From assembly GCA_944322305.1 (NCBI GenBank), contig CALUOP010000004.1, positions 124,001 to 188,000 of the forward strand: DNA of 64,000 nucleotides, written 5' to 3'. Under the pieces are notes generated by a model that was given only the letters and a program-made list of their open reading frames with translations, ran no database searches and was not told where the DNA came from. This document shows positions 22,219 to 60,575 of this stretch, one piece after another. How positions within the stretch are numbered: position 1 is the stretch's first letter; each line of letters starts with the position of its first letter. This DNA is from an uncultured Coriobacteriaceae bacterium. GTDB taxonomy: Bacteria; Actinomycetota; Coriobacteriia; Coriobacteriales; Coriobacteriaceae. The position numbers and the translations under genes are program-made.

Positions 22219-22240
22219 TTGCCGAAACGCCCTCCTTTGG

Positions 22241-22367
22241 GAAAATGGATGTTGTTTTCCGGAGTCCCGTCAAGTATACGAGCGTTTTGCCCGAGCAAAG
22301 GCGCTGGTAGAAGGCTTGCGCTTTCAGCGGCTACTTCGACGGACGCCGCAAAACAACATCCATTTTC
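22241..22367. repeat. 18-bp perfect inverted repeat flanking the putative hemW promoter
   Basis: GAAAATGGATGTTGTTTT (22241-22258) is repeated in exact inversion at 22350-22367. Between them, on the minus strand, is a TATACT -10 box (plus-strand 22273-22278), the likely hemW promoter. The right arm lies upstream of the promoter and the left arm in the leader. Either a small insertion (127 bp) or a pair of operator-like sites. Confidence 0.7.
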
Positions 22368-22403
22368 GCGTCTGCGCCCTTTTCACGCCTTCGAACGACC
22401 CCG

Positions 22404-57814: not shown

Positions 57815-57940
57815 TGTGGGACGGGCGCGGTGCGGGCGGGGCGGCGGGCGGCGCGAGCGGGGCGGCGGTGTAGGTGGGGCGGCGGGCGGCGCGGGTGGTC
57901 GGGGAGGGCGGCCAGGGAGGGCGGCGCGGGTGGCGGCGCG
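57815..57940. repeat. G-rich low-complexity tract upstream of leuS
   Basis: The plus strand is a run of GGGC/GGCG units with many GGG tracts, able in principle to form a G-quadruplex. It lies between the leuS promoter and the first motif array. Confidence 0.6.
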
Positions 57941-58411
57941 CATTTTTCTCGACAGGTACCACGCGCCACGCATTTTTCTCGTCAGGCGCACTGGGCCGCA
58001 CATTATTCTCGTCAGGCACGACGCGCGCTGCAGCTTCCTCTTGACAGGCGCACCGGCCCGCATATTCCTCTCGGCAGGTTCGAGGGGTCGCATATTCCTC
58101 TCGGCAGGCACGACGCGCGCCGCCCGCTTTTCTCGGCAAGCGCACCGGGCCGCACTTTCTTCTCGGCAGGTATGAGAGACCGCGCATTCCTCTCGGCAGG
58201 TGCAACCTACCTCATAGGCTTTCCCAGCGTTCTGCACTAATTACTCGACAGAAACAAAATGGCCTCAGCGGACAGGCGGCGCATACGTGCAAAAGCCAAG
58301 TGAAATATGACAGGTCCCCATCCCAAGCGCCCTCATTTACGCATCTGCCAAGTAAAATGCGCCAAACGGGAATGATCCCCATCACGTACGCGGCATTTAT
58401 CGAGAAGAATA
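57941..58411. repeat. Left motif array of the accessory island
   Basis: Thirteen degenerate copies of a motif, consensus GYACCTGYCGAGAARAATGC. Ten read on the minus strand, anchored (first C of CTCG) at 57948, 57978, 58008, 58040, 58070, 58100, 58132, 58162, 58192 and 58244. That gives steps of 30, 30, 32, 30, 30, 32, 30, 30 and 52. Three then read on the plus strand, anchored at 58296, 58348 and 58400, in steps of 52. Intervening DNA is mostly unique. Open frames across it encode only a CREE-type decapeptide repeat and change frame at the 32-base steps. Confidence 0.8.
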
Positions 58412-58461
58412 CGCCGACGTCATCGAGCGATGCGTGCCCCCAATGACCGTCATGCTCACTC

Positions 58462-58835
58462 ACCGCAGCTCCCCCACCCGCTTGCAGCTCTCGTCCGTCG
58501 CAGCTCTCACACACGCTTGCAACCCCCGCAGCTGAAGTTCTCGCCCGCCGCAGCTTCCCTACATGCCGCAGCCCCCCCGCTTGAAGTTCTCTTCCGCCGC
58601 AACTCTCCCACCTGCTTGAAGCCCCGCATGCCTCAGCTCTCGCCCGCCCTCCTGCAACCCTCGTCCACCGCAGCCCTCCCCAAACATTTGCAGCTCCCCT
58701 GCATGCCGCAGTTCTCGTCCGGCGCAGCCCTCGCTCACCGCAGCTTCCCTACATGCCGCGGCTCTCCCACCCGCTTGCAACTCTCCCGCATGCTGCAGCC
58801 CTCTCGCCCGCCGCAGCTCTCGCCCGTCCTCAGCA
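58462..58835. repeat. Degenerate pyrimidine-rich repeat
   Basis: The plus strand repeats variants of GCAGCTCTCGCCCGCC at 15-19 base spacing, with a 22-bp exact duplicate (58548-58569 and 58738-58759) 190 bases apart. It lies between the left array and the DUF559-like gene. The plus-strand frame through it is a Pro/Leu/Ser-rich translation of the repeat, not a credible protein. Confidence 0.65.
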
Positions 58836-58844
58836 ACCCACCTT

Positions 58845-58867
58845 GCATCTGTCGAGAAAAACGAGCC
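58845..58867 (+). repeat. Solitary copy of the array motif
   Basis: GCATCTGTCGAGAAAAACGA matches the array consensus well, anchored at 58852, 452 bases beyond the last regular copy and 213 bases before the DUF559-like gene. Confidence 0.7.
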
Positions 58868-59064: not shown

Positions 59065-60057
59065 ATGACCGTTGTTCTCGCCCACGCCTCGGCACTTCAA
59101 GCGCTGCAGCACCTTGCCGCACGCGGAGAAAAACCACGCCCCGTCTCGGTCTCGGGCGCGTACGGCACCTTGAAAGCGCCCAGCCTGTCGGAAATCGCCG
59201 GCATCGACCGCGCCGTACTGGGAATCGGCAAGCGCATACACATAGCCGTCCCCTCACGTGAGGCCGCCATCCGCAGAAGCGGCGTGGCGAGCCACGTGCT
59301 TGCGCGCCCGCTTCCCCGGTGGGCGCTGCTTTGTGTCGACCCAGGCCTCCTTTGCCTGCACCCCATTATCGCCGCCGCCCAGATGGCCCAACGCCTGGAT
59401 CTTGTTGAGCGCATCAGCCTGCTCTACGAGATCTGCGGCACATATGCCACCAGCGCAGGCGGCCGAAACAGCTACGCCGAGGTAAAACCGCTCGCAAGCG
59501 TACGCACGCTCACGCGCGCCCGCGAGCGTTTGCCCGAACTGCGCGGCGGCGCGCTGGTGGCTGACGCCTTGCGATTCGCAACCGACGGCGCAGCATCGCC
59601 CGCCGAAACGGAGATGGCGCTGCGCTTTGGGCTGCCGCGGCGTTTGGGCGGCTATGCCTTTGGCGTGCCGGTGCTCAACCGCGAAATCCGCGCCGGCAGC
59701 TTTCGGTACGCCGACGGAACGCCGGTGCGCAAAGGTCAGCCGCGCAAACCCGACCTGACATGGCCCGAGCTGAGCATTGCGCTCGACTACCACGGCGAGC
59801 GGTCGCATCAAACGTTCAAGCAGGTGGATCACGACCTGCGGCGCACAAACGAGCTGCAGATCTCGGGCATCACCTGCTTCACGCTCACGCGACATCAGGC
59901 GAGCGACTGCCTTGCCACCGACCGGCTGGCGTACCAAATGCAAAAAGCGGCGTTCGGGCGCATTCGCCGCTACCCGCCCGGGTTCTACGCCGCGCGGCTC
60001 GACCTTGCGGCGCGGCTTCTGCAAATTCGTCAACGGAACTGGCAGCGGCTCGCATAG
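59065..60057 (+). CDS. DUF559-like (Vsr/PD-(D/E)xK fold) protein of unknown function
   Basis: A 330-aa protein. Residues 1-175 form an unassigned N-terminal region with a Cys at 90 and a Tyr/Gly-rich middle. From residue 178 a DUF559-type domain is readable: SPAETEMALRFGLP (acidic residues E181, E183), RKPDLTWPELSIALDYHG (D230, D241, H243) and H248, then VDHDLRRTNEL. In the usual family pattern the second acidic residue is Glu in E-x-D-G; here it is D-Y-H-G, so activity is uncertain. ATG has AAGGAG upstream. It lies between two arrays of one motif, on the plus strand against the local trend. It may be a solitary nuclease-fold gene of an accessory island; no partner toxin, methylase or integrase is adjacent. 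Confidence 0.8.
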   Translation: MTVVLAHASALQALQHLAARGEKPRPVSVSGAYGTLKAPSLSEIAGIDRAVLGIGKRIHIAVPSREAAIRRSGVASHVLARPLPRWALLCVDPGLLCLHPIIAAAQMAQRLDLVERISLLYEICGTYATSAGGRNSYAEVKPLASVRTLTRARERLPELRGGALVADALRFATDGAASPAETEMALRFGLPRRLGGYAFGVPVLNREIRAGSFRYADGTPVRKGQPRKPDLTWPELSIALDYHGERSHQTFKQVDHDLRRTNELQISGITCFTLTRHQASDCLATDRLAYQMQKAAFGRIRRYPPGFYAARLDLAARLLQIRQRNWQRLA

Positions 60058-60098
60058 GCCGGGAGTGCGAAAGAAGCCTTCTCAGCGGCGCGACCGTG

Positions 60099-60575
60099 CA
60101 CTTTTCTCGACAAAGACGAGAAGGGCGCGCGTTATTTCTCACCGGGTAGAGAGCGCGCGCATTCCTCTTGACAGGTACAAAAGTGCGCACAATTCTCTCA
60201 GCAGGTGCAGACAACATTACCCTTTTGACGCTGTTTTTGCGCAAGTTACTTGGCAGATACAAAAGGGCCAGGCGACGCACACTGCGAGAGTGTGTACCAG
60301 CCGAGAAAAACCTGTCACTCCGAAGCGAAACAGCGCACGCCTTTTGCACCTGCCGAGAAGAACGCACCTGACCCAAGGCTCTCCTACGAGCCCTGTTGCA
60401 CTTGTCGAGAAGAATGGGCTGAAACCGCCTCATAGGGCCCAAGTACCATGCATCTGCCAAGAGGAATCTGCAGATGCAGGGCCGGCCAACGTACGCCATC
60501 GTACCTGTCGAGAAAAACCTGCGACCTCAAGGTGTTCTCGTGCGCATCCTTTGCACGAGCCGACAAAACGCGGCA
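60099..60575. repeat. Right motif array of the accessory island
   Basis: Eleven copies of the left-array motif. Five read on the minus strand, anchored at 60106, 60138, 60167, 60197 and 60249 (steps 32, 29, 30, 52). Six read on the plus strand, anchored at 60301, 60353, 60405, 60457, 60508 and 60560 (steps 52, 52, 52, 51, 52). The last minus copy and first plus copy are 52 bases apart by these anchors, exactly as in the left array. The region 60058-60615 has no credible gene. Confidence 0.8.

Follow-up and report, generated by a model that had tools for sequence, protein, structure and literature searches.

A nuclease gene in this DNA stands between two arrays of one short word, and the question raised by this locus is whether gene and arrays belong together and, if so, what kind of system they form. 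In the window (the whole 64,000-nucleotide stretch analysed here, from an uncultured Coriobacteriaceae bacterium), the features are as follows.

57938–58414: left array, with ten minus-strand copies of a 23-bp motif (anchors 57954–58250)
58294 (weak), 58346 and 58398, plus strand: plus-strand copies of the left array, beyond a 44-bp switch
58844–58866, plus strand: isolated strong motif copy (32 bits), between the left array and the gene
59065–60057, plus strand: nuclease gene encoding a 330-aa protein, single copy, with six diverged paralogs in the genome
60096–60271, minus strand: left arm of the right array (anchors 60112, ~60142 (weak), 60173, 60203 and 60255)
60293–60574, plus strand: right arm of the right array (anchors 60299, 60351, 60403, 60455, 60506 and 60558 (weak))

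Two arrays of one plan around a nuclease gene

The array word is the 23-bp motif TGYAYCTGYCGAGAARAACGYGC. A weight matrix derived from its own copies was used to locate them, and the first T of TGYCGAG was taken as the anchor. The right array (60096–60574) is made of two outward-facing arms and contains nine strong copies of 19–32 bits, four of them minus-strand and five plus-strand, with two weak copies near 60142 and 60558, in agreement with the eleven copies counted in the sequence-only reading. Same-strand steps are ~30, 31, 30 and 52 bp in the left arm and 52, 52, 52, 51 and 52 bp in the right arm, which is the order that had been described (steps of about 30 bases, one of 52, an inversion and five of 51–52). 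The left array follows the same plan, with nine minus-strand copies at 30/32 bp, one 52-bp step, the switch to the weak copy at 58294, and two further steps of 52 bp. The orientation switch had been given as 52 bases in both arrays; the distance is indeed the same in both, but it is 44 bp from anchor T to anchor T, and the figure of 52 depends on the anchor base. Motif and spacing are nearly all that the left and right arrays have in common, so neither is a recent duplicate of the other, and the earlier view of two arrays with one architecture holds.

The motif has no dyad symmetry and the repeat unit is not itself a short palindrome. A structured RNA was rejected for the right array, which has no Rfam match and gave z values of 0.05 and −2.3 when folding was compared with shuffled DNA; its centre, with z 0.05, folds no better than the shuffles. 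A CRISPR array was also rejected, since the copies are degenerate, the orientation inverts at a fixed point, the steps are 30/52 bp and Rfam gives no match. Between the left array and the gene (58463–58830) lie irregular GCAGCTCTCGCCCGCC-like and CCGCTTGCAGC-like words, unlike the array motif.

No Pfam, NCBIfam, PADLOC or PHROGs family was assigned to the 330-aa product, and searches of Pfam, NCBIfam and PHROGs gave neither a transposase nor an HUH-transposase match; its homologs gave sub-threshold matches only, to DUF559 and REase_MTES_1575. An AlphaFold2 model from 12 homologs (pLDDT 84, pTM 0.85) predicts an AbiEi-antitoxin-like N-terminal half joined to a Vsr/I-Bth0305I-type nuclease fold at residues 177–298. 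In the predicted structure, these residues match the catalytic domain of the homing endonuclease I-Bth0305I with Z 11.1 and Vsr with Z 9.5. I-Bth0305I is also the only significant sequence match of the family profile against the PDB (3r3p, E = 0.003), and the catalytic-type residues E181, D230, H248 and R260 are conserved in ≥90% of the 12 homologs. The N-terminal 173 residues align with the Streptococcus agalactiae AbiEi structure with Z 6.9, in a range where Z alone is weak, and the AbiEi likeness of this modelled half is suggestive only. At the window locus, the neighbouring genes were read as leuS and a zinc-ribbon protein gene. No viral relative of the nuclease gene was confirmed, and no plasmid relative was found.

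The array family in the genome and in a sister species

The motif has 148 sites with ≤5 mismatches in 669 kb of the source genome versus one in the reversed sequence, and its abundance is far beyond chance. The genome-wide lists were compiled by pattern search and from sampled stretches of the source genome, in which exact motif cores form tight groups across most contigs. The plan is not special to the two arrays of the window: in 18 stretches scanned with the weight matrix, ≥14 more arrays, in intergenic DNA at unrelated loci, show the same plan and keep the inversion. In this family, 11 switches measure exactly 44 bp and two measure 55 bp; among same-strand steps, 49 are of exactly 52 bp and the rest mostly of 30, 40–41, 50–51 and 60–63 bp. 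When the 52-bp steps are left out, the remaining 43 still gather on a single face of the helix with a 10.5-bp period (R 0.82, Rayleigh p ~3e-13), a phasing reached in 3 of 5000 randomly drawn sets of distinct steps. Such motif pairs are absent from 400 kb of other sequence of the same genome. The array copies are alike only in motif and phase, so either the copying was not recent or strong divergence followed it.

Genes flanking these arrays include polA, purD, pgm and those for an SMC/RecN-type protein, phosphofructokinase, an Na+/H+ antiporter, Fic and an ECF sigma factor, and several arrays sit between convergent genes; gene-specific regulation was rejected, as the flanking genes are functionally unrelated. 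A separate block beside polA (L022 5101–8094) has a strong 61-bp repeat lag and is probably a CRISPR array, because a cas1-like gene is near. Outside the source genome, the exact window motif has 16 single matches in IMG/VR. Broad family-wide conservation of the motif, as read from raw counts, was rejected, since the Atopobiaceae matches that were checked lie largely in coding DNA, without arrays.

Comparison with the congener G001, whose leuS is ~90% identical to that of the source genome, shows the island to be absent there as a whole. The distance from leuS to the next (zinc-ribbon) gene is 416 bp in G001 versus 2.97 kb in the source genome; G001 lacks the nuclease gene together with both arrays, and no recognisable array is present at the locus. 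Three other window-family arrays are likewise missing in G001 (150 versus 789, 134 versus 798 and 98 versus 986 bp), as is an array of another motif, that of the paralog C7 described below (L244 17395–18020; 37 versus 764 bp). The proposal of a composed unit of array, gene and array is supported by its absence as a block and by the recurrence of bracketing in paralogs and homologs; however, arrays also occur alone at many loci, and the island is not the only unit. Neither a clean duplication of the target nor a sharply bounded element emerged from these comparisons, and exact element ends cannot be read because the intergenic DNA has diverged between the two genomes. A related word, TGCGCAAGGCGAGARGAACGCGC, occurs in G001 as a pair with a 52-bp step.

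The arrays could alternatively be operator or architectural sites, where a DNA-binding protein polymerises on phased sites and regulates genes or organises the chromosome; the binder would perhaps be the AbiEi-like half, and the nuclease fold and any mobility would be incidental. Strict helical phasing, like the inverted arms, is a usual mark of cooperative binding, and AbiEi antitoxins autoregulate via inverted repeats (PMC7319586), which fits an AbiEi-like N-terminal half, although that match is within the range where Z alone is weak. We nevertheless regard this explanation as unlikely, considering the unrelated functions of the flanking genes, the position of several arrays between convergent genes, the absence of arrays as blocks in the congener and the conservation of catalytic-type residues across the nuclease family.

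Paralogs and homologs with private repeats

The idea that the window motif goes with every nuclease paralog was wrong. All six diverged paralogs in the source genome (C1, C3, C5, C7, C8 and C11) are without window motif arrays, and five of the six adjoin other inverted motifs. The C7 paralog has an array of GGGCGARAANNNNNYNGATACGA in 30-bp steps on either side, each running from plus copies through a centre to minus copies, and C3 and C5 are each bracketed by inverted pairs. Homologs in four relatives (two in G001, and those in G003, Olsenella G276 and an Atopobiaceae MAG) also adjoin private repeats, and those in two congeners and Olsenella are bracketed. The recurrence of bracketing has limits, as C1 and C8 each adjoin a single pair, on one side only, one G001 homolog (G001b) has an element on one side only, and C11, whose active-site residues are decayed, has no adjoining repeats. 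Altogether, two-sided bracketing is clear in 7 of the 12 genes. The match between upstream and downstream flanks beats all but ≤1 of 120 control ORFs in 7 of the 12, and inverted pairs beside the 11 non-decayed genes exceed those of 210 controls (Mann–Whitney p = 2e-7). In the 600-bp inverted-pair test, neither the window gene nor the Atopobiaceae gene is conspicuous, and several percent of control ORFs are also near such elements because the elements are common. In G003 (L118 1320–3560), a C7-type gene with arrays on both sides adjoins the border gene of the pgm-upstream array, a place where G001 has no array.

Most of the private motifs seen also occur dispersed in other places. The C3 motif has 14 sites, which form seven inverted pairs, all 105–106 bp apart (reversed control 0), and the C1 motif forms three inverted pairs of 120–121 bp, with no sites in the reversed control. 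For C7, 75 sites were found (reversed control 0), with arrays at six loci at least; no copies of the C5 motif were found outside the flanks of C5 itself.

Window 22240–22368: inverted pair of the C3 motif AAAATGGATGTTGTTTT, between two genes, 105 bp start to start
L232 6292–6865, L243 670–1031 and L247 4795–5265: dispersed C7-motif arrays, inverted, 30-bp steps
L028 7943–8313, L033 1704–2200 and L244 17395–18020: dispersed C7-motif arrays, inverted, 30-bp steps

Long hairpin structure is seen in the C3 and C1 elements, and the C3-motif pair in the window folds into a near-perfect hairpin (z −7.8 versus shuffles); arm covariation within the C3 elements is not significant (p = 0.38). TACC(A/T)G, noticed after looking, lies at the exact element centre in seven of seven C3, four of seven C7 and two of three C1 elements. 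Across ten families, the higher the identity between two proteins, the more alike their motifs tend to be (Mantel r = 0.72, p = 0.0004; with the close ortholog removed, r = 0.38, p = 0.04); the motif examples were hand-chosen, and the motifs were found after looking. The C7 ortholog in G001 (70–73% identical) keeps the C7 motif, and the G003 homolog (41–42% identical) has a shifted version of it. Further phased array families, with the words GCGGAACG..GCTGATAC and a 40-bp GGTTACGCAT unit, were seen without a link to a paralog (L240 1290 and 8241, L237 19775).

If an ordinary transposase moved the repeats as non-autonomous transposable elements, the nuclease gene would be a passenger caught between two of them. 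Such an origin would account for elements missing at matching sites in the congener and for the long hairpins of the C3 and C1 elements, and a mutator-type transposase gene adjoins one array. Nonetheless, we consider it improbable: most paralogs have their own repeat and repeat similarity tracks protein similarity, which is unexpected of a passenger, and no target duplications were seen. Finally, the arrays could be dense clusters of a core, CGAGAAGAACGC, that serves as a DNA-uptake-like signal across Coriobacteriales, given that GCGTTCTTCTCG occurs 92–110 times in each of five Olsenella-type (g11) genomes (reversed pattern 0–2) in coding, intergenic, prophage and hairpin settings, but this is very improbable, as about one site per 20 kb is too few compared with known uptake signals, most Collinsella-like genomes are without a GCGTTCTTCTCG-type pattern, and the exact 52/44 spacing and the private motifs of the paralogs are left unexplained.

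The five genomes with GCGTTCTTCTCG are G276, G294, G295, G323 and G212; inverted pairs of it lie in hairpins (L103 1258–1307, L187 5383–5404), and it is also found in coding DNA (L072 328–376). In prophage-like loci of the Olsenella-type genomes (L082 2970–4105, L141 and L170), a GIY-YIG-like gene, identified by eye, stands between terminase and portal genes with CGAGAAGAACGC motifs on both sides, 70 bp apart.

A proposed repeat system and its relation to known ones

On balance, we lean towards a repeat system of several families, of which this locus is one unit, operating in the manner of REPIN–RAYT with an unrelated enzyme. The pairing of nuclease genes with private mirror-image words points to an as yet unrecognised type of repeat system, selfish or self-spreading. 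The nuclease would bind its own private motif, with several molecules lined up along a single face of the helix in two mirror-image arms, and would cut in or near the element. Repair or copying of the break could then spread the element and multiply copies inside it, and the gene may persist because it is placed between two copies of its own target. We think that the nuclease recognises its own motif and that cutting drives the spread. More tentatively, and with somewhat more doubt than belief, these genes may represent an undescribed Coriobacteriales class of AbiEi–Vsr nucleases, each recognising and multiplying a private, helically phased mirror-image array, with co-evolving motif dialects and a TACC(A/T)G centre in several families. 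In the part of the literature that we searched, no paper linked this type of nuclease gene with repeats.

If the REPIN–RAYT-like reading is true, REPIN-like repeat populations tied to a host gene would have a second, independent origin, built on a nuclease in place of an HUH transposase. Several paralogs with different private motifs in one genome make protein–DNA co-evolution directly testable, and the proteins would be a natural set of specific nucleases if the sites that they cut are long, distinct and phased. For annotators, such intergenic blocks would not be random, and the spurious repeat-coded ORFs in them would be explained.

Three known systems resemble parts of this one. With the AbiE type IV toxin–antitoxin system, whose AbiEi binds inverted repeats (PMC7319586), the protein shares the N-terminal alignment (Z 6.9); here, in contrast, the protein carries a fused nuclease domain, the repeats flank the gene on both sides and also occur at distant loci, and no AbiEii toxin gene was found among the neighbouring genes read at the window locus. 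The EDxHD/Vsr-type homing endonuclease I-Bth0305I is closest in fold, with conserved catalytic-type residues, and in both cases the gene adjoins copies of a (here putative) target. The nuclease gene here is free-standing, and the putative target differs in being a dispersed inverted repeat array rather than one conserved gene site. In REPIN–RAYT, a single-copy, distinct gene has its own repeat family in its flanks and in dispersed intergenic inverted pairs of ~70–110 bp (PMC3116915). Each nuclease gene here is likewise single-copy and distinct, with flank repeats and dispersed inverted pairs of 105–106 and 120–121 bp; but the enzyme is a Vsr-like (Vsr/PD-(D/E)XK) nuclease with an AbiEi-like half instead of a Y1/HUH tyrosine transposase, the motifs are non-palindromic words of 20–28 bp, which in the window and C7 families have built up into phased arrays of up to ~15 copies.
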